Source: Haloplasmatales bacterium 4B | GTDB lineage: Bacteria; Bacillota_I; Bacilli_A; Haloplasmatales; Haloplasmataceae | Length of the DNA stretch: 36,496 nucleotides | NCBI GenBank assembly: GCA_003586005.1 | Contig: NSKI01000023.1 | Location: 1-36,496 of the forward strand | Direction: 5' to 3' | Shown: positions 12,669-36,364 of the stretch, one piece after another | Position numbering within the stretch: the stretch's first letter is position 1 | Layout of the letters: each line of letters starts with the position of its first letter | Program-made: the position numbers and the translations under genes | Notes under the pieces: model-generated | Database searches by the model: none | What the model was told of the DNA's origin: nothing | Seen by the model: the letters and a program-made list of their open reading frames with translations, nothing else

Positions 12669-12926
12669 TTAATGTTTTATAAGAATGTTCCCATTAATTA
12701 GTTTCTTAACTATAATGCTTTGATCTTGATAATCCTGATACTCATTTGGTGTTAACTCTGAGTATTCTGTACAGATTCCTATAACATCAACAACTTCAAC
12801 CTGATTTTGATATCCACTTAATGATTCATATACTCCCATCAATCCATCTTTACTGAATTGGTTTTGTCTATCATAGCGGATAAATTCCCTCATAAAGTCT
12901 TCAAAACTCAATCTTTTTACAATCAT
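12669..12926 (-). CDS. Small acidic protein, paralogue of the 34.3-34.6 kb protein
   Basis: This 85-residue acidic protein is of unknown function. It starts at an ATG preceded by GGGAGATGAAG. It is clearly homologous to the 83-residue protein encoded at 34311-34562. Both begin M(I/L)VKRL.(F/Y)ED, share EFIRY.R..QFS, continue with VEVVDVI..C..YSE(I/L)TP.E, and end with a (K/R)(K/R)L(I/L)NG strand and a final H. I see no known domain. The gene is intact although its upstream neighbours, the SSB and basic-protein relics, are decayed, so it may still be used. It probably serves the mobile element. Confidence 0.55.
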   Translation of the reverse strand: MIVKRLSFEDFMREFIRYDRQNQFSKDGLMGVYESLSGYQNQVEVVDVIGICTEYSELTPNEYQDYQDQSIIVKKLINGNILIKH

Positions 12927-14474: not shown

Positions 14475-15584
14475 CTAAACGAACATTTGCTGTAGTAAGC
14501 CTTTTTTAAATAATCTAAGTTTTTCAAGTTTGTTTTCAATTAGGAATATCTTATTATTAAACAGATCTAAGTCACTAACAACTTTATCTTGAGTCATCTT
14601 ATCAGGAATCTTAATATACAAATTTTGATATTCTGATATGTAATATCTTTTATGATTCTCGGGATTAAAGTCTATATGTTGCATAGCTTCATAAACAAAT
14701 TTTAAATTAACATCTTTATTCTTTACTGTTAAAATCTTTATAGCTGATGATTTAACTTTAAATTTAAAATCAACGTATTTATTTAGAGTTGTAAAGTCAT
14801 CAAATAATATTACACTTCCTTTGTCATAAATGCCTTTAACATCATTTGTATACCCTAGAATAAACGATTTATTAGCGGTTAAAACTGGTATATTATATTC
14901 TTGACTGACTTCCTCAATATTGTTGGTAATATATTTTGGAGGCTGTTCGTAATCTAATAATTCAGATAACGGTTTAGTTTCCCAGTCATTATCTACTAAA
15001 ACTTCCATTGAAGTTTTCTTTTTAAATTGATAAGTCAATTCAAGTTTCTTCTCTAGCAAATTAATCTTATCATCTACTTTTGATAGAAAGTTTGCTATTT
15101 TTTCTTGTTCATCCAATGATGGAAATGACATTTTAATTTTATAAAAATCGCTGTGATTCAAATCTGGAATTGTTGAAGTACCAGCTAAACGTAAAATTAA
15201 ATTTTGTGTTTTATAAAATCTTAAAAAGAAAACCAGGAAATCTTTATTAATAACTTTATTATTAAATTTAATTTTGAAAAAATTATTATGAAATGCTCCT
15301 GATATATTTGTTACTACTTGCCCTGTATTTCCTGTTCGTGTCATTAAAACATCTTCTTTAGTACAAATAACAGACTTAGGTGGGTTGATAATGTAATATT
15401 TTTTTTGAGATTTTTCTTTTAAAAATTCATTAGTTATATAAAAAAAACTATCTTCCACTTTTTTAGTTAGGCGATCGGAAATTGCAATTTGAAGACCCTG
15501 ATTAATTTTTGTTAGATTTTTAAATTTTTCAAATTTCCAGTCATTCGTAAACTCTTTAAACCTTAATTTAGGTACATTCTTCAT
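14475..15584 (-). CDS. hsdS: Type I restriction-modification specificity subunit
   Basis: This 369-residue protein chooses the DNA sequence for the type I complex. It has two target-recognition domains (about 1-150 and 195-330). Each ends in a conserved helical spacer: FPSLDEQEKIANFLSKVDDKINLLEKKL and the weaker IPDKMTQDKVVSDLDLFNNK...LIENKLEKLRLFKKGLLQQMF. LMTRTGNTG and IPDLNHSDFYKIK are typical of the first domain. Because the two halves differ, the site should be a bipartite asymmetric sequence. The ATG follows AGGTGGTGATTCT and lies 11 bases after the hsdM stop. No repeats suggesting shuffling of recognition domains are visible. It appears complete. Confidence 0.92.
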   Translation of the reverse strand: MKNVPKLRFKEFTNDWKFEKFKNLTKINQGLQIAISDRLTKKVEDSFFYITNEFLKEKSQKKYYIINPPKSVICTKEDVLMTRTGNTGQVVTNISGAFHNNFFKIKFNNKVINKDFLVFFLRFYKTQNLILRLAGTSTIPDLNHSDFYKIKMSFPSLDEQEKIANFLSKVDDKINLLEKKLELTYQFKKKTSMEVLVDNDWETKPLSELLDYEQPPKYITNNIEEVSQEYNIPVLTANKSFILGYTNDVKGIYDKGSVILFDDFTTLNKYVDFKFKVKSSAIKILTVKNKDVNLKFVYEAMQHIDFNPENHKRYYISEYQNLYIKIPDKMTQDKVVSDLDLFNNKIFLIENKLEKLRLFKKGLLQQMFV

Positions 15585-15595
15585 AGAATCACCAC

Positions 15596-17140
15596 CTAAA
15601 GTACAGGAGCTTTTATACCAAGCTCATCACAGTATTTCTTAATTTCTTTATCTATTTCAACCATTTCTTTATCAATTTCGATAATTTTATTTGCTACTTC
15701 TTCTAAATCAATTTCCTCTTCTTCCTCAAATGTATCTATATATCGTGGAATATTTAAGTTATAATCATTTTCTCTAATTTCATCAAGTGATACAGGTCTA
15801 GAATACTTTTCAATTTCTTGACGTTTTTCATATGCTTCAACAATTTTTAATACGTGTTCATCTATAAGCTTATTTTGAGTTTTAACTTTTACATAGTTGT
15901 TAGAAGCATCGATAAACATTACATTACTATCTTTTTCTCTACATTTCTTAAAGACTAAAATACAAGTTGGAATACTTGTTCCAAAAAACATATTTTGAGG
16001 TAATCCAATTACTGCATCCAAATAGTTTTTTTCTTCAATTAAATACTTTCTAATTACCCCTTCTGCTGCTCCCCTAAATAATACACCATGAGGTAAAACA
16101 ATCGCCATCGTACCATTTTCATCTAATTGATAAATCATATGTTGTACAAATGCAAAGTCAGCTTTTGAACTAGGTGCTAATTTCCCATAAGGACTAAAAC
16201 GTTCATCACTTAATTTTAAATCATCCGCATTCCACTTAATAGAATATGGTGGATTAGCTACAACTGCTTCAAACTTCTTATTTAAATGATATGGCTCCTC
16301 TAAAGTATCACCTTGTTCAATATGAAAATCTTTAAAACTTACATTGTGAAGAATCATATTCATACGAGCTAAGTTGTAAGTCGTTGTATTTAATTCTTGC
16401 CCATAAAAGTCAGTTACTTTTGCTTCTTTCGCTACTCGTAACAGTAATGATCCAGATCCACAGGTCGGGTCATACACACTTTTAAGTCTTCCTTTTCCTA
16501 ACGTAACGATTTTAGCCATTATTTTAGATACTTGTTGTGGTGTATAAAACTCTCCAGCTTTTTTACCTGCACTACTTGCGAACTGTCCAATCAGATATTC
16601 ATATGCATCACCTAAAATATCTGATTCAACGTCATTAAACTTAAAGTCTATTTCTTCTAAATGTTTGACTACTTCTGAAATTAACTTATTCTTTTGAACT
16701 ACTGTTTTACCAAGTTTTGAGTTAATTAAATCAACATCTTCAAATAATCCAGCAAATCCATCTTCACTATCTCTACCTAATGTTGATTCTTCTACATATT
16801 TAAATGCTCTACCAAGATCTTCAATAATCATTTCACGATTAACTGCTCTTTGAGCTAGTTTTCTAAATAAATATTTAGGTTCAATAAAGTAACCTAAAGT
16901 ATCTAATAGTTCTTCTCTTAGTTCTACGATTAGTTCTTCATCTTCAATAGCCTCAATAAAGGTTACACCATCTGCCTCTAATTCTCTATTAGCTACCTCT
17001 TCAACTTTTTCTGATAAATATTTATAGAAGATTAAACCAAGGATATAATCACGAAATTCATCAGCACCCATATTACCTCTAAGTTCATTAGCGATTGCCC
17101 ATAGTTTAGTTTCTAGTATTTTTCTTTGATTTTCAGTCAT
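15596..17140 (-). CDS. hsdM: Type I restriction-modification DNA methyltransferase subunit
   Basis: This 514-residue N6-adenine methyltransferase protects host DNA and forms the core of the complex. The N-terminal HsdM_N helical domain begins at about residue 3. Motif I is DPTCGSG (224-230), motif IV is NPPY (296-299), and GEFYTPQQVSKIM is the usual linker before motif I. The acidic C-terminal coil (EEEEEIDLEEVANKIIEIDKE) fits contact with HsdS. The length is normal. It follows hsdR by 12 bases and has GGAGTGG seven bases before the ATG. All catalytic residues are present. Confidence 0.95.
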   Translation of the reverse strand: MTENQRKILETKLWAIANELRGNMGADEFRDYILGLIFYKYLSEKVEEVANRELEADGVTFIEAIEDEELIVELREELLDTLGYFIEPKYLFRKLAQRAVNREMIIEDLGRAFKYVEESTLGRDSEDGFAGLFEDVDLINSKLGKTVVQKNKLISEVVKHLEEIDFKFNDVESDILGDAYEYLIGQFASSAGKKAGEFYTPQQVSKIMAKIVTLGKGRLKSVYDPTCGSGSLLLRVAKEAKVTDFYGQELNTTTYNLARMNMILHNVSFKDFHIEQGDTLEEPYHLNKKFEAVVANPPYSIKWNADDLKLSDERFSPYGKLAPSSKADFAFVQHMIYQLDENGTMAIVLPHGVLFRGAAEGVIRKYLIEEKNYLDAVIGLPQNMFFGTSIPTCILVFKKCREKDSNVMFIDASNNYVKVKTQNKLIDEHVLKIVEAYEKRQEIEKYSRPVSLDEIRENDYNLNIPRYIDTFEEEEEIDLEEVANKIIEIDKEMVEIDKEIKKYCDELGIKAPVL

Positions 17141-17152
17141 TAATAACCACTC

Positions 17153-19999
17153 CTACCAAGTAAATTTCTCTACAAAATTCTTAATAATATCAATAATTTC
17201 ATTTATCTTTCTTCTTCTAGCTTTTAGATGACTTTCTCCATCAAACATATCCACACCAGGTATTAATTCATTTAATGATTTTTTAATCAAAGGTTTATTT
17301 ATTTTCTGTGAATATTCATAATCACTAATAATCTTTTTAAAGACATCTTCTTTCAAATTGTTTTCAACAACAATTTGTGCTAAAACTTCTACTTTTTTCG
17401 CATTCATATACAACTCAAATTCTTCATCTATTGCACAACCCTCGGTAAAGTTCGTTGCATGAATAAATTCTTCAATTAATTCTTTCTTAGAACGAAGATT
17501 CTCTGTATCCATTTGTTTTAGAATAAACTTAATCTCTTTTTCGAAGTTTTCACTTCCACTATTCAAGTTACCTAATAAATTTAGAATATAATCAACATTA
17601 ATATGATCTTTTCTTAATAAAGCAATCTCAAAATCGATATCTGATAAAATCGATTCTGCTTTTCCAGTTTCTCTTGATTTGATCAAATCATATATTTCAA
17701 AATACTTACTTTTGTATTCAACAAATAATTCATCATTAATTATTAAATCATTGAATGAGAAATCCACAAATGAATCTAGTATATTGATTCCTCTTACCAC
17801 ATTTCTAAACAGACGCACAAATTCTGCTTTTTGTGCTTCAGATTGAAGCTGATTGACTTCATCTGGTGAAGCTATAAAATCTAGTAACTCTCTAATCTGC
17901 TGATTGGTTTGTTCTACGTATTCTTCATAAGTCTTCCATAAGACAGCCTCTACCGCATTGGAATCTGAGAATAATTCAATTGCTTCATTTGTTTTTTTAT
18001 ATAAGTTTCTAAAATTAACGATGTTTCCAAATGATTTTAAATCATTTAAGATTCGATTTGTTCTTGAATAAGCTTGAATCAAACCATGATATCTTAGATT
18101 TTTATCTGTATATAATGTATTTAAATAAACACTGTCAAATCCCGTTAAGAACATATCAACAACAAGAAGGATATCAATTTTGCGTTCTTTTACTTTCTTA
18201 GAAATATCAACATAATAAGCATTAAAACCATTAAAACGATTTAAATCATGATTTTCACCAAACATTTTATTATAATCTTTTACATATTGATCCAGTTTCT
18301 CCCTTGAGTGAGCTTGACTTACTGGATTTCCTTCTGTATCAAAATTACCATCAATATCTGAAAGATCTTCATTCGCTCCGTTAGTAAAGATTGTGGCAAT
18401 CTTTAAATTATGATCCTTACGTTTAAAGATATCATAATACTGAATTAAATTCTTCACAGAACTTACCGTAAACATCGCTGTAAAATGGCGGTTTTTTGTT
18501 TTAAAGTCATGTATCTTTAGAATGTGATCGACAATTAGTTCTAAACGTTCTTCACTATCAAATACTTCTTGTTTATTAATTCCTGGAACATCTATATCAT
18601 CATAATCCTTATCTCTTCCTGTTTCTTCTTCAATAAAATCTTTATTTGTAAAGGTTCTCAAGTATTCAACACTAAACCCTAAAACATTATCATCTGCAAT
18701 TGCATCTTTAATAATGTAACTATGGAGCCTTTCCCCAAACAACATTTGCGTTGTCTTTCCTTCAATTGAATTCACCGCAAAAATTGGTGTTCCTGTAAAC
18801 CCAAAAAACTGTTTATTCGTAAAGTACTTATTAATGCGATGATGAGAATCACCAAATTGTGATCGGTGACACTCATCAAAGATAAACACCATACGTTTAT
18901 CTTTTACTGATTCCATTCCTTTAAGATACTTTTCATTTCTAACAAGGTTGTTTAATTTTTGAATTGTTGTAATTAAAATACGAGTTTTAGTATCTTTTAG
19001 TTGCTTATATAATTGATCTGTATTACGTGTTGAACTAACTGATCCAGGAGAAAAAGATTCAAATTCTTTCATCGTATTAAAATCTAAATCTTTTCTATCT
19101 ACACAGAAAATAACTTTATCAATATCTTTATGTGTTGCAAGTATTTGACTTGCTTTAAAGGATGTTAATGTTTTCCCAGAACCAGTTGTATGCCAAATAT
19201 AGCCATTTTTCATCGCATTACTTTCAACATTTTTAATAATTTCTTCTACCGCGTAATATTGATATGGTCTTAACACCATTAAGGCATTTGCGGTTTCATT
19301 TAAAACGATATATTTCGTAATCATTTTTGATAAATGACATTTCTCTAAAAAATGTTCTGTAAACTCCGATAATCTTGAATATTTATTATTTTCAATATCA
19401 GTCCAATAAAAAGTTTGTTTATAGTTTAGTTCTTTATTATTTGAGAAATATTTTGTATCTACACCATTACTTATCACAAATAACTGTAGATATTGAAACA
19501 ATCCATTATAGGAGTGTCTATGATATCGGCAAATCTGATTAAATGCTTCCTTTAATTCCATACCTTTACGCTTCAATTCAATTTGAACCAAAGGTAGCCC
19601 ATTAATTAAAATCGTTACATCGTATCGATTTTCATACATTCCAAGAATTGTAATTTGGTTAGAAACCTGAAAAAGATTCTGACACCATTTATCAGAATTT
19701 ATAAAACTAATATAACAAACTTCTCCATTATCTAAAATTAAATCTAATCCAGCTCTTAGTTTCTTGGCCTTTTCAAATTTTGATCCACCAGATAAATGAT
19801 TCATGATTTTATCAAATTCATTATTAGTGAATTCAGTTACTCCACAAAGCAATAATTTTTCAGAATTATGTTGTTCTAACTGATATTTAAAATTCTTTTC
19901 AAGTTCATTTTCATCTTTAAATTTGATTCTTTTATAACCATTTGATAATAAATCTTTAATCAAATTTTCTTCTAAAACTGCCTCTGCTTGAATTGTCAT
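17153..19999 (-). CDS. hsdR: Type I restriction endonuclease subunit (translocase-nuclease)
   Basis: This 948-residue motor subunit cleaves DNA lacking the host methylation. The N-terminal PD-(D/E)XK nuclease is seen in RYDVTILINGLPLVQIELKRK (Asp127, Glu141-x-Lys143). The helicase motor has Walker A TTGSGKT (271-277), DECH (375-378), FGFTGTPIF (motif III) and, later, DMFLTGFDSVYLNTLY and QAYSRTNRI (motifs V-VI). The length and motifs place it with the EcoR124I-like group. The ATG follows GGGGTGATGTGAG. It leads the hsdR-hsdM-hsdS operon and is preceded by an extended -10 promoter. No frameshift is visible, so the system appears functional. Confidence 0.95.
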   Translation of the reverse strand: MTIQAEAVLEENLIKDLLSNGYKRIKFKDENELEKNFKYQLEQHNSEKLLLCGVTEFTNNEFDKIMNHLSGGSKFEKAKKLRAGLDLILDNGEVCYISFINSDKWCQNLFQVSNQITILGMYENRYDVTILINGLPLVQIELKRKGMELKEAFNQICRYHRHSYNGLFQYLQLFVISNGVDTKYFSNNKELNYKQTFYWTDIENNKYSRLSEFTEHFLEKCHLSKMITKYIVLNETANALMVLRPYQYYAVEEIIKNVESNAMKNGYIWHTTGSGKTLTSFKASQILATHKDIDKVIFCVDRKDLDFNTMKEFESFSPGSVSSTRNTDQLYKQLKDTKTRILITTIQKLNNLVRNEKYLKGMESVKDKRMVFIFDECHRSQFGDSHHRINKYFTNKQFFGFTGTPIFAVNSIEGKTTQMLFGERLHSYIIKDAIADDNVLGFSVEYLRTFTNKDFIEEETGRDKDYDDIDVPGINKQEVFDSEERLELIVDHILKIHDFKTKNRHFTAMFTVSSVKNLIQYYDIFKRKDHNLKIATIFTNGANEDLSDIDGNFDTEGNPVSQAHSREKLDQYVKDYNKMFGENHDLNRFNGFNAYYVDISKKVKERKIDILLVVDMFLTGFDSVYLNTLYTDKNLRYHGLIQAYSRTNRILNDLKSFGNIVNFRNLYKKTNEAIELFSDSNAVEAVLWKTYEEYVEQTNQQIRELLDFIASPDEVNQLQSEAQKAEFVRLFRNVVRGINILDSFVDFSFNDLIINDELFVEYKSKYFEIYDLIKSRETGKAESILSDIDFEIALLRKDHINVDYILNLLGNLNSGSENFEKEIKFILKQMDTENLRSKKELIEEFIHATNFTEGCAIDEEFELYMNAKKVEVLAQIVVENNLKEDVFKKIISDYEYSQKINKPLIKKSLNELIPGVDMFDGESHLKARRRKINEIIDIIKNFVEKFTW

Positions 20000-30130: not shown

Positions 30131-30162
30131 AAATAAACCAAAGATATCTCTAAGGTTTATTT
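30131..30162 (-). terminator. Terminator of the first recombinase gene
   Basis: AAATAAACC (30131-30139) pairs perfectly with GGTTTATTT (30154-30162) around 14 bases. On the minus strand a T run follows. The hairpin includes the recombinase stop codon. Confidence 0.65.
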
Positions 30163-31761
30163 CTTTTTATTTATGATAAATGTAAATGCTAAATTATCAT
30201 ACATATCATTTTTTCCATTATTCAGCATTTTGTTAAATAAATTTTGTGTGATTTGAATGTTAAATCTAGGTTCACCTGTTTTATCAAGTTGTATAAATTC
30301 AACAAGTTCATTGATAACTTCACTTTTATACTCAATATTATTTTTGCTATTATGTAAAATCATTGATAGTTTATTGACAAATATATCGACATCCTTTTTA
30401 ATTAAAGTTATTGTTTTTTGATTAAGTAAGTAATCTGAATTATTAATACTTTTAAGTTGGTTCAATAAATAATTAAATCGTTCAGTAAATAACTTTTTAC
30501 TATTAACGAACATAGTTTCTTCGATTATTCCACTTTGGAATTGTTCAGTCAAATACTGCCTTCTTTTTTCTAATGATTGTAATTCAACTTGTAAAGTATC
30601 TATGTTCAAATTTTTAGTTCTATATCTTTGTACTTCTTTAACTAAATTAGCGTTTAAGGATTCCATAAACATTGAAGAATTTATCAACAATGTTAAGGAT
30701 TCAATTAATATATTATCTACTACATCAACACGTATTGCTGCAGAATTACAAGATTTAACCCTATAACTATTATGACAGCGATAATACAATCTTTTATTTT
30801 TACCAGAGCCTGACCATACTCCATACATTTTAGCTCCACACTTATAACAAATAATTTTCCCTGAAAACAAATAATTCTCATGATTTCTTTTAACAATTTT
30901 GTTTTCATTCATCATTGCTTGTACGTTATTCCAAATATCTATTGAAATAATTGGTTTATGTAATCCGTCTATTAGTTTTAACCTCTTACTTCTTTTATTC
31001 TCATCAGTTTCATACAATTTTATTTTTCCAATATATATTGGATTTTTAAGTATTCGTATTATTGAACTTTCAACAAATTTACTATTGGTTCTTGTTTTAT
31101 AATTTTTTTCATTTAAGTCCCTTGCAATCTCTATAACATTCATCCCACTAATATATGAATCATATATATTTCTTATTATTTTTGCCTCTTTGTCATTAAT
31201 TGCTAAATAGGATTCTCCTTTTTCATCCGTTAACCTCCTGTAACCTAAGCTTACATATTTCCCACCAGGACTTTTTCCATCTCTCTTCCGTTTCTTAATT
31301 GATTCAGTTACACGTACTCTTATATTCTCTAGTTCCAATTCACTGACTAAACCAAATACAGAAATAAGAATTTTAACAATGATCTCATTACTAGTATCAA
31401 TACCATCTTTTAATGCAACATAATGAACACCACGTTCATAGCATAGATTAATAAACCAATGAATTTCATGAGTGGATCGACTAATCCGATCTAATTTAAA
31501 AGAATATATTTTACTTATATTATTGTTTTTAGATTTTATTTTTTCTATTAGTTTAAGTATACCAGGTCTATTCTCAAATTTACTTCCTGATATTCCTGGA
31601 TCTGTATAGATTGCAATATTTTTCTCACTATATCCATCAGATATAGCTCTTGCTTTTAATTGTTCCTTTTGAACATCGAGTGATTGTCCATGTTCAACTT
31701 GATGATTCGTTGAAACACGTTATCGCAAGTAAAGTGCACAGTATTTACCTACTTTACCCAT
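30157..31761 (-). pseudogene. Large serine recombinase 1, interrupted by one in-frame TAA
   Basis: From an ATG at 31761 (after GGAGGGATATC) the frame reads MGKVGKYCALYLR, TAA at 31722-31720, then RVSTNHQVEHGQSLDVQKEQ and on without another stop to 30157. In all there are 533 sense codons, normal for a large serine recombinase. The serine of RVST is the nucleophile. DPGISGSKFENRP, KIYSFKLDRISRSTH and LVSELELENIRVR complete the catalytic domain. Then come the recombinase domain and a zinc ribbon (CYKCGAKMYG...C...C), with a coiled-coil tail. Normal proteins read YLRVST here, so six bases (TAACGT or CGATAA) look inserted. It is either a pseudogene with one lesion or expressed by readthrough. Confidence 0.8.
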
Positions 31762-31793
31762 GATATCCCTCCTCTCAAACATTGTTAATTTAA

Positions 31794-33391
31794 TTAATCT
31801 ACATTGCGATAAACATCCTGAAAATTTAGTTCCTTGTATTTACCTTCATAACTATCACCAATTACTTTTAGGAATATATCTTTATCAATATATAATTCAA
31901 ACTTTGCCTTTCCTGTGCTAACATCTTTGAAAGCAACTGTATTTATAATTTCATTTATGATTTCAATTTGTAACTTTTTATTACCTTTAGAATCACTTAT
32001 AATTTTCTTTAAATTGCTAATAAAAGTTATAATATCTTTATCATATTTACTTTCTGTAGCTTTATCAATTTTGATTTCTAAATCCTTTAAAAGTTTTTCT
32101 TTATTTCTTAATTCATCTAATTTATCATTAACGATTGCTATTGCTTCGCTATATAATACCTCATCCATTAAACCATAAGCATATTGCTCAATCAAGTTAT
32201 TCTTTCTCGCTTTAAGTGTATCAATTTCATTATTTATATCGATATCATAGTCTTCATTATTTGCTTTATATGTTTCTTTTACAAGCATATCTTTTATAAA
32301 TATATTAAACTTTTTTGAATCAATAATTTTTAACAATGCACTTAACAACATGTTATCTGTTAAATCAACCCTCAAAGCCTTAGCACTACATTTTTGGTTA
32401 AAGCATTTATAATATTTATGTCTTCTTTTATCTTTTTTATTGACCATTCCTGTTCTTTTTCCATACATTTTTGAACCGCATTTTGAACAAATAATCTTTG
32501 AAGAAAATAAATATTCTTCAAAGTTTCTTTTTCTTGTTATTTTATATCTGATAATCTTTTTTTGAACTCTTTCCCATAGATCTTTTGATATTATTGCATC
32601 GTGTAATCCATCCACAAGGATTGGTGCATCTTTATTCCTTCTTTTATTTCTTTCAGGATTGTTGTATCTAATCTTTCCTATATACACAGGATTTTTTAAG
32701 ATTCTATCGATAGAACTTTGCTTAAATGCATTATTTGCTCTTGTTTTATAACCTTTTTCATTTAAGTTATTAACTATATTTTTTTTGCTCATTCCATATG
32801 CATAGGACTCAAATATATATTTTATTATCTTTGCTTCATCCTTATCTATCTCAAAATAGGTTTCACCTTTTTCATCTGTTAATCTTTTATAACCTAAACT
32901 AACATAAACGCCACCCAAACTTTTCCCTTCTCTGTATCGTTTAAGTCTTGATTCAGTCGTTCTAATTTTGATGTTTTCTAACTCTAGTTCACTGACTAAT
33001 CCAAATACAGTAACTAGGATTTTACCTAGTGTTGGATTACTGGTATCAATACCATCTTTTAAAGAAACATAATGCACTCCGCATTCTGAACACAGATATG
33101 AGTTGACCTACTTATTCTATCTAACTTAAATGAATAGATTTTACCAATATCATTATCAGGTGATTGAATCTCTTCAATTAACTTTAAAATTTCTGGTCTA
33201 TTTTCAAACTTACTACCCGATATTCCAGGATCTTGATAAATACTTATATCTTCTACCTTATATCCATCAGATATTGCACGAGCGATTAATTGACTCTTCT
33301 GAACTTCTAAAGATTGTCCGTGTTCAACTTGTTGAGCAGTTGAAACACGTTATCGTAAGTAAATTGCGCATTTATTTTGCTCTTTACTCAC
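31794..33391 (-). pseudogene. Large serine recombinase 2, same in-frame TAA plus a 19-base deletion
   Basis: This is a tandem paralogue of recombinase 1, roughly two thirds identical by eye. From GTG 33391 (after GAGGGGGGAT) it reads a 13-codon start ending CAIYLR, TAA at 33352-33350, then RVSTAQQVEHGQSLEVQKSQ to RISRSTH. There, at about 33098, 19 bases are missing relative to recombinase 1. The 1598-base length plus 19 is divisible by three. The frame then resumes with GVHYVSLKDGIDTSN through the recombinase domain, a zinc ribbon (CSKCGSKMYG) and a coiled coil to 31794. The start overlaps the end of the 129-aa gene by eight bases. Two lesions make it a clear pseudogene. Confidence 0.8.
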
Positions 33392-33773
33392 TGGTATCCC
33401 CCCTCTCATACAATGTTCCATATTTAATGGGATAAAATATACTTCTTGTCCTTCTTTTTGCCTTATAACCTAATGATATAAATACGTACCGTAATACTCT
33501 ACCAACGCATTGCTTATCAAAATTATTTAAATCAATTTCATTTAATTCTTTCTCATAATATTTACAAAATGTATATACACACGCAATGTCAAAATAATCG
33601 TTATTAAATATCATAATCTTAATAAACTCTTCTGAGTTAATCGCTGTATTTAATAATATCCATATCGGTGTATTACGATAATATAAATTCATCGCTGGTT
33701 CTTTTGAGGAATATAAATTATATTCAATTATTGGCTTTAATGCCTCTAAATCAAGATCTATATGCTTAAACAT
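33384..33773 (-). CDS. 129-aa hypothetical protein, paralogue of its upstream neighbour
   Basis: This protein of unknown function is homologous to the 121-aa protein encoded just upstream. Shared features are an aromatic-Y/F-N stretch, FIK(I/V)(M/L)IFNND.F.IA..YTF in the middle, and a C-terminal G...RY.F...GY.....R.... followed by a G.LY turn. It starts at an ATG that overlaps the upstream TAA (TAATG) after AAAGGTGG, so it is translationally coupled. A longer frame from 33806 has no ribosome binding site. Its end overlaps the recombinase 2 start. The pair may be accessory factors of the recombinases. Confidence 0.6.
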   Translation of the reverse strand: MFKHIDLDLEALKPIIEYNLYSSKEPAMNLYYRNTPIWILLNTAINSEEFIKIMIFNNDYFDIACVYTFCKYYEKELNEIDLNNFDKQCVGRVLRYVFISLGYKAKRRTRSIFYPIKYGTLYERGDTSE

Positions 33774-34138
33774 TATACATCCACCTTTCTGTATAACCGG
33801 CCCCATCGTAAATTCGACTTATTTAATTGTGTTCTTGTATATTCTTCATAACCAATGAATTCAAATATATATCTTATAAAGGCACCTAATAGGCTCTTTT
33901 GAAATTTATTTAATACCATATCATCATCAATAAACATTGCAGCAAAAGTATAGTTACCTGCAATGTTAAATTTATCATTATTGAAGATTAAGACCTTTAT
34001 AAAGAAATCATTATCTAATGCTACATCTATTGCATCCTTCATATATACATTTTTATAAAATGATCTTAATGGTAATGACTCACTATTTCTGAATCTATTA
34101 AATACATAAGACTTTAATTCCTGTTTATCAATATCCAT
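33773..34138 (-). CDS. 121-aa hypothetical protein, first of a tandem paralogous pair
   Basis: This protein reads MDIDKQELKSYVFNRFRNSE at its start and contains FFIKVLIFNNDKFNIAGNYT, the core it shares with the 129-aa protein downstream, and a C-terminal AFIRYIFEFIGYEEYTRTQL. It has no membrane segment or known motif; it is soluble and rich in aromatic residues. Tandem duplication and divergence beside serine recombinases is the only clue to its role. The ribosome binding site is weak (GATGAGATG). It lies just after a terminator, so it has its own promoter somewhere in the 34139-34185 gap. Confidence 0.55.
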   Translation of the reverse strand: MDIDKQELKSYVFNRFRNSESLPLRSFYKNVYMKDAIDVALDNDFFIKVLIFNNDKFNIAGNYTFAAMFIDDDMVLNKFQKSLLGAFIRYIFEFIGYEEYTRTQLNKSNLRWGRLYRKVDV

Positions 34139-34310: not shown

Positions 34311-34562
34311 TCAATGCCTTACCAAGTATTTACCATTCAGTAATCTTCTAACATTTATATCCTTTGAGTAATATTCTTTAAATTCCTCAGGTGTTATTTC
34401 AGAATATGTTGAACAAAATTTTATAACATCCACTACCTCTACCTTATCTTCATTTATTAATGCATATATCGCTTCAAGAGCATCTTCACTGAACTGTTCT
34501 TCTCTTGCATATCTTATAAACTCATTTTTTAAATCCTCATAGTTCAATCTTTTAACTAACAT
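34311..34562 (-). CDS. Small acidic protein, intact-module copy
   Basis: This 83-residue acidic protein starts MLVKRLNYEDLKNEFIRYAR and ends INVRRLLNGKYLVRH. It is homologous to the 85-residue protein at 12669-12926 over its whole length, with the central VEVVDVI..C..YSE most alike. No domain is recognised. The ATG follows AGAGGATGG. It is the last gene before the terminator. The same gene kept in both copies of the module suggests a useful element function such as replication, regulation or anti-restriction; the last is only a thought prompted by its charge and the nearby restriction genes. Confidence 0.6.
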   Translation of the reverse strand: MLVKRLNYEDLKNEFIRYAREEQFSEDALEAIYALINEDKVEVVDVIKFCSTYSEITPEEFKEYYSKDINVRRLLNGKYLVRH

Positions 34563-34916: not shown

Positions 34917-35249
34917 TTATTCAACATTTTTATGAGAATTAATATAGGTTATCTTTTCTCCCATTATTTCTGGTATATGAATGATCCCATCTTTTGTTTC
35001 AATTGATGCTTGCTGTATTCTTGCTTTAATACCAACGACAGATCCTTCTTTTAGAAAATCTATCGTAGTACCTTCTATTCCATCCCATAAACTTACTGTG
35101 ACTATATCACTGTCATATTCTAATGTATTTGGATTTTTGTAACTTCTTTTAATATCCATCGTTATTTTGGTTTTATGAACACCAGATGCTATGGTTTCCC
35201 TAATAGGTTTTTCAATTAATCTTCCAACCAATATACATTGATTTAACAT
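34917..35249 (-). CDS. ssb: Single-stranded DNA-binding protein (OB-fold), element type
   Basis: This 110-residue protein begins MLNQCILVGRLIEKPIRETI, the SSB start (MLN.v.LVGRL..DP). IDFLKEGSVVGIKARIQ corresponds to the usual a.yl.KG..v.v.G.l strand, and IIHIPEIMGEKITYI to the last OB strand. It is shorter than chromosomal SSB and lacks the acidic glycine-rich tail that recruits repair proteins, as is common in mobile elements. AGGAGG precedes the ATG, which directly follows the stop of the basic protein gene, so both are co-translated. It should coat single strands made when the element replicates or moves. Confidence 0.8.
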   Translation of the reverse strand: MLNQCILVGRLIEKPIRETIASGVHKTKITMDIKRSYKNPNTLEYDSDIVTVSLWDGIEGTTIDFLKEGSVVGIKARIQQASIETKDGIIHIPEIMGEKITYINSHKNVE

Positions 35250-35534
35250 TTATTTTTTCCTCCTGTTCTTATAATTTCTATTTGTTCTTTGATTAGAATT
35301 ATCAAATCTATATTCAAAGTTATCGCTATTAAAATCCACAACATTGACACTTTCAGTAACAATGACTACTTTATCTTTACTATAGGTTTCAGTTCGTCTC
35401 ATCGCATTTGTTAGTGAATTTTGATAGCCTTTTTTATATCTTCCTCGATTCGTACCAGCAACTGTTTTTGCGATACTATAACCGTTATTGTTGTTATTTC
35501 CTCTTTTTGTAGGATAATATTTCTTATATGCCAA
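35250..35534 (-). CDS. Basic, asparagine-rich protein upstream of SSB
   Basis: This 94-residue, strongly basic and low-complexity protein starts AYKKYYPTKRGNNNNNGYS and includes TNRGRYKKGYQNSL, then VVIVTESVNVVDFNSDNFEY, and ends in an Arg/Lys-rich tail. The start is a TTG seven bases after GGAGG. Its relic at 13650-13785 keeps the same two blocks, so these are the conserved parts. The composition suggests nucleic-acid binding. It is always placed just before SSB in this window, so it is likely to work with it. No family is recognised. Confidence 0.6.
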   Translation of the reverse strand: MAYKKYYPTKRGNNNNNGYSIAKTVAGTNRGRYKKGYQNSLTNAMRRTETYSKDKVVIVTESVNVVDFNSDNFEYRFDNSNQRTNRNYKNRRKK

Positions 35535-35579
35535 GTCTTCACCTCCAATTTTTATAATCTAAACATGAATACCTTTATA

Positions 35580-36056
35580 TTAACTAATATATTTTTCTTC
35601 TCTCATGCTTAAGTAATTAACATTATTAGCATCATAACTGTTACCTATAATTAAATGATCAAGTAGTTCTATACCCAACAGTTCACCAGCATCTTTTAAT
35701 CTAGAAGTAACATCAATGTCACTTTGACTAGGTAAGACATTACCACTTGGATGATTGTGTGCAACAATTATGCTAGCTGATGATGATAATATCGCAAAAT
35801 TAAATACTTCTCTTGGATGTACAACTGAACGATTTAATGAACCAACAAACACTGTTTTTACAGCTATAATCTTATTTTTGACATCTAAACATAAGACAAT
35901 AAAATGCTCTTGCATTTCACCTTGAAGATCAAAAACATCATATATTAGTTTTGCGATATGTTCTGGAGCTGTCACTTGAAAATCATCATCTATTTTATAG
36001 TTCATGCCATTTTCTTTTACTAATACCATTTTTGTTTTATAGTAGTTGATTCTCAT
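35580..36056 (-). CDS. radC: RadC/JAB-domain protein
   Basis: This protein of 158 residues contains the RadC-type JAB/MPN domain. HFIVLCLDVKNKIIAV leads to VFVGSLNRSVVHPREVFNFA, then the metal site AHNHPSGNVLPSQSDIDVT (HxHP...SxxD) and LGIELLDHLIIG. All ligands are present. It lacks the N-terminal helix-hairpin-helix part of chromosomal RadC, as in many plasmid and island copies, whose job is unclear despite the historical name. The ATG at 36056 follows AAAGGTGG; a start ten codons earlier has no site. It lies 20 bases after the 95-aa gene and before the basic protein/SSB pair, and belongs to the mobile-element core. Confidence 0.88.
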   Translation of the reverse strand: MRINYYKTKMVLVKENGMNYKIDDDFQVTAPEHIAKLIYDVFDLQGEMQEHFIVLCLDVKNKIIAVKTVFVGSLNRSVVHPREVFNFAILSSSASIIVAHNHPSGNVLPSQSDIDVTSRLKDAGELLGIELLDHLIIGNSYDANNVNYLSMREEKYIS

Positions 36057-36076
36057 ATTAAAAACACACCACCTTT

Positions 36077-36364
36077 TTAATACCATTCTCCAACGCCATG
36101 ATACTCTGTAAATAAAGTATCAGAGTTAAATGACGCAATACTTGAATCTTGTTCTCGTAAATCCCTTAAATATTCCCTTGCACTTTGAGCAACACCGATT
36201 AATGTTGCATAATCTTTTTTCAGATAAACTGAAAAACTAATATCAATAATTTTTAAAATATCTGTTTCTAGATCTTCATTTGTAAATAAATCGTTTAATT
36301 CACGATAAATAACTGCTTTTGATAATAATTCATTCGTTGATAATTTTTTAATTTTATTTAACAT
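36077..36364 (-). CDS. 95-aa hypothetical protein upstream of radC
   Basis: This small, mostly helical acidic protein starts MLNKIKKLSTNELLSKAVIY and ends TEYHGVGEWY. The ATG at 36364 is six bases after AGGTG; an in-frame start three codons earlier is less well placed. The stretch ELLSKAVIYRELNDLFTNED and the coil LIGVAQSAREYLRDLREQDS show heptad-like spacing. I know no family for it. It is co-directional with radC, basic protein and SSB and most likely belongs to the same element operon, whose start is near 36380-36496 or beyond the window. Confidence 0.55.
   Translation of the reverse strand: MLNKIKKLSTNELLSKAVIYRELNDLFTNEDLETDILKIIDISFSVYLKKDYATLIGVAQSAREYLRDLREQDSSIASFNSDTLFTEYHGVGEWY

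Follow-up and report, generated by a model that had tools for sequence, protein, structure and literature searches.

An in-frame stop codon ahead of the active-site serine in two tandem recombinase genes of a Haloplasmatales bacterium: a candidate for ribosomal stop-hopping

Can a recombinase gene with a stop codon just in front of its active-site serine still be a working gene? The question is raised by contig NSKI01000023.1 of Haloplasmatales bacterium 4B (assembly GCA_003586005.1), whose 36,496 nucleotides, analyzed over their full length, are here called the window. Within it, two neighbouring genes for large serine recombinases, Rec1 and Rec2, are both interrupted at codon 14 by the same in-frame TAA. 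This feature had been pointed out in a preliminary description made from the letters of the window; the observation is real, and the comparisons reported below support it better than such a description could. Whether the stop is functionally bypassed, by hopping or by readthrough, is in our judgment an evenly balanced proposition.

Two tandem recombinase genes with the same stop-bearing insert

The genes lie in tandem on the minus strand, Rec2 (33391-31794) first and Rec1 (31761-30157) second, each preceded by a strong ribosome-binding site (GAGAGGAGGG for Rec1, GAGAGGGGGG for Rec2). Rec1 begins with ATG at 31761, runs through codons 1-13 (MGKVGKYCALYLR) to TAA at 31722-31720 and continues with RVST in a frame open to 30157, the single internal stop being the only lesion across 535 codons. 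Rec2 begins with GTG at 33391, followed by VSKEQNKCAIYLR, TAA at 33352-33350 and RVST, and 427 codons are open past a deletion near 33095-33098. The layout is common to both genes: 13 codons ending in YLR, the stop in the context CGA-TAA-CGT, and then VST with the active-site serine. The 17 bases CGATAACGTGTTTCAAC occur exactly twice in the window, on the minus strand at 31709-31725 and 33339-33355 (shuffled sequences give an expectation of 0), and no copy outside these two sites was found in the whole 2.26-Mb genome. Taking six bases out yields the family-normal YLRVST in Rec1 and Rec2, and extra codons at this point were found in none of about 30 other serine recombinases read at the DNA level (at most 38% identical to Rec1). 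The preliminary description had listed these features, namely the identical 17 bases around a shared TAA, the succession of ribosome-binding site, 13 codons, TAA and RVST, the six extra bases and the absence of any other lesion from Rec1, and all of them were borne out.

When searched against Pfam with the insert removed from the query, Rec1 matched Resolvase (PF00239), Recombinase (PF07508) and Zn_ribbon_recom (PF13408), all above the cut-off, and thus has the resolvase catalytic, recombinase and zinc ribbon domains that define a large serine recombinase. The catalytic motifs of that group (R-x-S, D..G.SG..RP and DR..R) are present, with DPGISGSKFENRP and LDRISR among them. The R-x-S motif, in the form YLRVST, arises only if the insert is bypassed; the catalytic residues 3' of the stop (S, D..GISGSK..RP and KLDRISR) are retained. 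Protein identity between Rec1 and Rec2 is 76-78% over the first ~96 codons and ~44% beyond, a larger divergence than the difference of about a third first reported. A change of genetic code with TAA reassigned was ruled out because all three stop codons terminate ordinary genes of the window (9 TAA, 5 TAG and 3 TGA at the ends of 17 open reading frames). A search for known RNA elements in the window found none.

A stop-bearing insert at the same codon boundary in another genus

The nearest gene, G005:C3:111999-113561, belongs to a different genus of the same family and is 52% identical to Rec1 at the protein level. It is likely the ortholog of Rec2, because a small upstream gene is common to both and because its nonsynonymous divergence (dN) is lowest to Rec2 (0.25; other comparisons 0.38-0.42). 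This gene also carries an insert, CGCTGAGTG, at the same codon boundary (in context, TTACGCTGAGTGTTTCTACA), which adds five bases, contains an in-frame TGA and shifts the frame. Another copy, ~7 kb from the first, is decayed and has the identical insert; in G005 the insert is older than the duplication. Each of the four genes known in the subfamily thus has a stop-bearing insert at this one codon boundary. Relatives with an insertion exactly here, which the preliminary description had proposed looking for, are the G005 gene and its duplicate; a larger element sitting at the insert point was seen in no relative read. The duplication itself (locus L036 on G005:C3, 8400-8710 and 13967-15610, minus strand) is a recent tandem one of small gene plus recombinase, with one copy truncated and decayed, and it adjoins chromosomal genes resembling dtd and relA.

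In protein searches covering ~390 genomes of the class and ~390 of the phylum, no subfamily members turned up besides those of G005, and peptide patterns run against GTDB contigs and IMG/VR confirmed no further member; the best plasmid and phage matches were ~25-30% identical. A degenerate pattern for stop-bearing recombinases, TAYYTNCGNTRRNNNGTNTCNACNNNNNNNCAR, recovered both window genes, matched nothing else among 247 class genomes and matched no recombinase in IMG/VR, scans that cover the rarity of such genes outside the class only in part. The database search proposed at the outset recovered the window genes and added no others from the class.

Age of the insert and constraint on the genes

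At synonymous sites Rec1, Rec2 and the G005 gene have diverged to saturation or close to it (synonymous divergence, dS, by NG86 from 1.6 to infinity), and in the catalytic domain dN is 0.10-0.16 with dN/dS of 0.03-0.08; this ratio, whose calculation past the stop had been recommended, is not near 1. The sequence CGATAACG is shared without a difference by Rec1 and Rec2, two genes whose fourfold-degenerate sites match at only 28 of 64, and a match at all five unconstrained bases has p ~0.016. Gene conversion between Rec1 and Rec2, offered initially as an alternative to shared inheritance, is argued against by the comparison: no local excess of Rec1-Rec2 similarity was found around the insert, the Rec1 flanks resemble Rec2 no more than they resemble G005, and codons 12 and 16 differ synonymously, which limits any converted tract to ~20 nucleotides. 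The simplest reading would be that the insert is older than the split of Rec1 and Rec2 and was altered in the G005 lineage.

Two tests bear on translation after the insert. A stop would result from about 6% of the single substitutions possible in the body of Rec1, enough for long neutral drift to have riddled it with stops, and none is present; therefore, if the insert is old, Rec1 was translated after it. Since the G005 duplication, changes in the intact copy number 3 silent and 0-1 replacement, against 6 and 9 in the decayed copy; these are small numbers, taken from 75 codons. Selection on the protein while the insert was present is strongly suggested, by the one test as by the other. Simple pseudogene decay appears to fit poorly, and an old insert in genes still translated would fit better; the retention of protein-like sequence past the stop in three genes over a long divergence suggests that ribosomes skip it.

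A serious rival explanation holds that the genes are dead or dying and that the insert is an inactivating scar. It would have arisen at a mutation hotspot, the inverted repeat's base, or through an element that targets the active-site sequence; very short conversion or template switching would have carried it from one tandem copy to the other, and the other genus would have suffered an independent event. We consider this history of scar and pseudogene a real possibility, although short of an even chance. Pseudogenes have high prior odds, Rec2 and the second G005 copy carry further lesions, the insert does lie at the base of an inverted repeat, where indels are common, tandem copies favour template switching, and the G005 insert is unlike the window insert in sequence and length. 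The price of this explanation is two independent stop inserts at one codon boundary and a converted tract of at most ~20 nucleotides between genes whose DNA is ~73% identical and whose flanks carry no conversion signal; moreover, the intact G005 copy is still constrained after the insert, and a larger element at this point is absent from every relative read.

A proposed +6 hop over the stop

The leading mechanism, which we hold tentatively, is a +6 hop, by which translation would bypass a stop that this recombinase subfamily has long carried by inheritance. The tRNA-Arg with anticodon ICG decodes CGA, CGC and CGU, and its I-A pairing at CGA is weak. A ribosome reaching the CGA codon would stall at UAA; the peptidyl-tRNA-Arg would release CGA and re-pair six bases on, at CGU, so that the nine bases CGA-UAA-CGU would give a single arginine and the product would read exactly YLR-VST around the active-site serine. 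The layout of a stop-hop, with take-off and landing codons for one tRNA and the stop right after take-off, is present in Rec1 and Rec2 and missing from the G005 ortholog. The likely purpose would be to allow very little recombinase to be made, the role that frameshifting plays for many transposases.

A hairpin predicted directly 3' of the stop may help the hop. Its form is common to both genes, CGUGUU(U)CAAC...GUUG-AACAYG. In Rec2 it reaches -13.0 kcal/mol, is the most stable 33-nucleotide window of the gene and is equalled by 0.2% of synonymous-codon shuffles, and a separate folding comparison gave z -3.1; in Rec1 it reaches -8.9 kcal/mol, is the second most stable place of the gene and is equalled by 2.3% of shuffles.

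Several observations weigh against this mechanism. The G005 ortholog has an insert of another sequence and length, one that breaks the frame, and a single inherited insert is therefore something we infer; that gene would need a +5 or -1 change, it has neither a CGN landing codon nor the hairpin, and it does not share the proposed +6 hop as such. It also offers an alternative ATG (ATGCGC..., read as MRDLLTLSVST) from which 535 amino acids are open and the arginine before VS is lost. Two of the four subfamily genes, Rec2 and the second G005 copy, are decayed, as dying genes would be, and the gene tree does not settle in which order Rec1, Rec2 and the G005 ortholog branched. A suppression of synonymous change around the site was looked for and not found, conservation there being ordinary. 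As for the hairpin, its inverted repeat had been noticed before its stability was tested, its 5' arm would already be within the ribosome once the stop occupies the A site, which makes its role uncertain, and Rec1 has a competing hairpin. Finally, tRNA-Arg(ACG) is absent from the 31 tRNAs found in an assembly that looks incomplete in tRNAs. Taken with the evidence above, the argument that shared inheritance would imply recoding is strengthened by the stop insert in another genus, by saturated dS with low dN/dS and by the missing conversion signal, and it is weakened by the different, frame-breaking insert of G005; recoding itself is a hypothesis.

The alternative ATG of the G005 ortholog invites the explanation that the first 13 codons are a short leader and that the functional product has another start. 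In the other genus this would be that ATG, 21 bases into the open reading frame, used by termination-reinitiation; in the window it would be a distal one, and the resulting recombinase, lacking normal catalysis, would serve as a DNA-binding regulator. Leader reading frames are common in regulation, and Rec1 has an in-frame TTG at 31338. We nevertheless regard this as improbable: no usable start lies between TAA and VST in the window, which would leave the most conserved part, the catalytic domain, untranslated, and the 13 codons are conserved as a normal first beta strand (KCAIYLR), not as a leader.

Plain readthrough, in which a near-cognate tRNA decodes UAA, would lengthen the first beta strand by two residues, to YLR-X-RVST, and is also unlikely. 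The frame is unchanged across the stop in Rec1 and Rec2, Arg-Val-Ser-Thr is complete after it, and the alternation of the beta strand would survive a two-residue shift. UAA, however, is the least leaky bacterial stop, no suppressor anticodon occurs among the 31 tRNAs (an incomplete list), the G005 ortholog is out of frame, and readthrough leaves the CGN codons on both sides unexplained. The preliminary description had spoken of readthrough or recoding; a bypass gains partial support, and readthrough is probably the wrong word for it, since CGA-UAA-CGU fits a hop better.

Comparison with known systems

Phage and integrative and conjugative element integrases of the large serine recombinase group share domain order and catalytic motifs with Rec1, and these ordinary relatives are uninterrupted. 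The transposase genes of insertion sequences use programmed frameshifting at slippery -1 or +1 sites midway in the gene. The presumed purpose there is the same as in Rec1 and Rec2, little synthesis of a DNA-rearranging enzyme; in Rec1 and Rec2, however, the stop stands at codon 14 and there is no slippery sequence.

A close parallel is found in the stop-hops that Weiss et al. 1987 made synthetically, with a CGN-stop-CGN layout (as described in PMC5009743) and a net +6 shift that keeps the frame, as proposed for Rec1 and Rec2; those were laboratory constructs, whereas Rec1 and Rec2 are known from sequence alone. According to a 2016 review no natural in-frame stop hopping was known (PMC5009743). 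Bypassing in T4 gene 60 (PMC5009743) likewise has a stop right after the take-off codon, a landing codon for the take-off tRNA and a stem-loop at the site (a predicted one in Rec1 and Rec2), but its gap is 50 nucleotides, compared with 3 between the codons of Rec1 and Rec2 (net +6), its take-off and landing codons are both GGA rather than the synonymous CGA and CGU, and its nascent-peptide and 5' stem-loop signals have no counterpart identified in Rec1 or Rec2. The bypassing elements of Magnusiomyces capitatus mitochondria (PMC5009743) are short gene inserts made harmless by ribosomal bypassing, as is proposed for Rec1 and Rec2, but they involve mitochondrial ribosomes with relaxed decoding; in Rec1 and Rec2 the ribosomes would be bacterial and the code is normal.

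Genomic surroundings

The features discussed are collected in Table 1. Upstream of the recombinases lie two related small genes without a Pfam family (33384-33806 and 33773-34138, minus strand), homologs of which occur near large serine recombinases in G005:C4, G051 and G111, suggesting a conserved recombinase partner, possibly a directionality or accessory factor. Further upstream, SSB-like and RadC-like genes (34917-36086, minus strand), typical of an integrated mobile element, approach the contig end at 36496. Two similar short proteins of 85 and 83 amino acids are encoded ~21.6 kb apart on the minus strand (12669-12926 and 34311-34562), a pair that may mark duplicated modules of a mobile region. 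Apparent type I restriction-modification genes, judged from translations only, occupy 14475-19999 in the minus-strand order S, M, R.

Table 1. Coordinates of the recombinase genes, their stop codons and associated features in the window.
Feature	Position	Strand	Description	Basis
Rec1	30157..31761	-	535-codon large serine recombinase; codon 14 is its one in-frame TAA	Open reading frame reading and Pfam
Rec1 hairpin	31689..31719	-	RNA hairpin CGUGUUUCAAC...GUUGAACAUG directly after UAA, including the CGU landing codon	Predicted folding
Rec1 stop	31720..31722	-	In-frame TAA, codon 14, flanked by CGA (31725-31723) and CGT (31719-31717)	Sequence
Rec2	31794..33391	-	Rec1 paralog with TAA insert as in Rec1 and a later frameshifting deletion	Open reading frame reading and Pfam
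Rec2 deletion	33095..33098	-	Approximate junction; shifts the frame	Open reading frame reading and codon comparison
Rec2 hairpin	33319..33349	-	RNA hairpin CGUGUUUCAAC...GUUGAACACG directly after UAA	Predicted folding
Rec2 stop	33350..33352	-	In-frame TAA, codon 14, flanked by CGA and CGT	Sequence
Small protein	33384..33806	-	No Pfam family; 3' end overlaps the Rec2 start; homolog directly upstream of the G005:C3 ortholog (68% identity)	Protein comparison

Implications

In its fullest form the proposal, which is possible and which we advance with reserve, is of a natural in-frame stop-hop in which UAA is routinely skipped between CGA and CGU, in place before Rec1 and Rec2 separated and throttling recombination, with a sister lineage that would have changed its solution after the loss of one base. 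Stop-hopping in the laboratory dates from 1987, and a natural in-frame case would be new relative to the 2016 review (PMC5009743). If the conserved stop-hop is true, very short bypassing would serve as a form of regulation, and some genes with an early stop between matched codons that are now taken for pseudogenes would be live.
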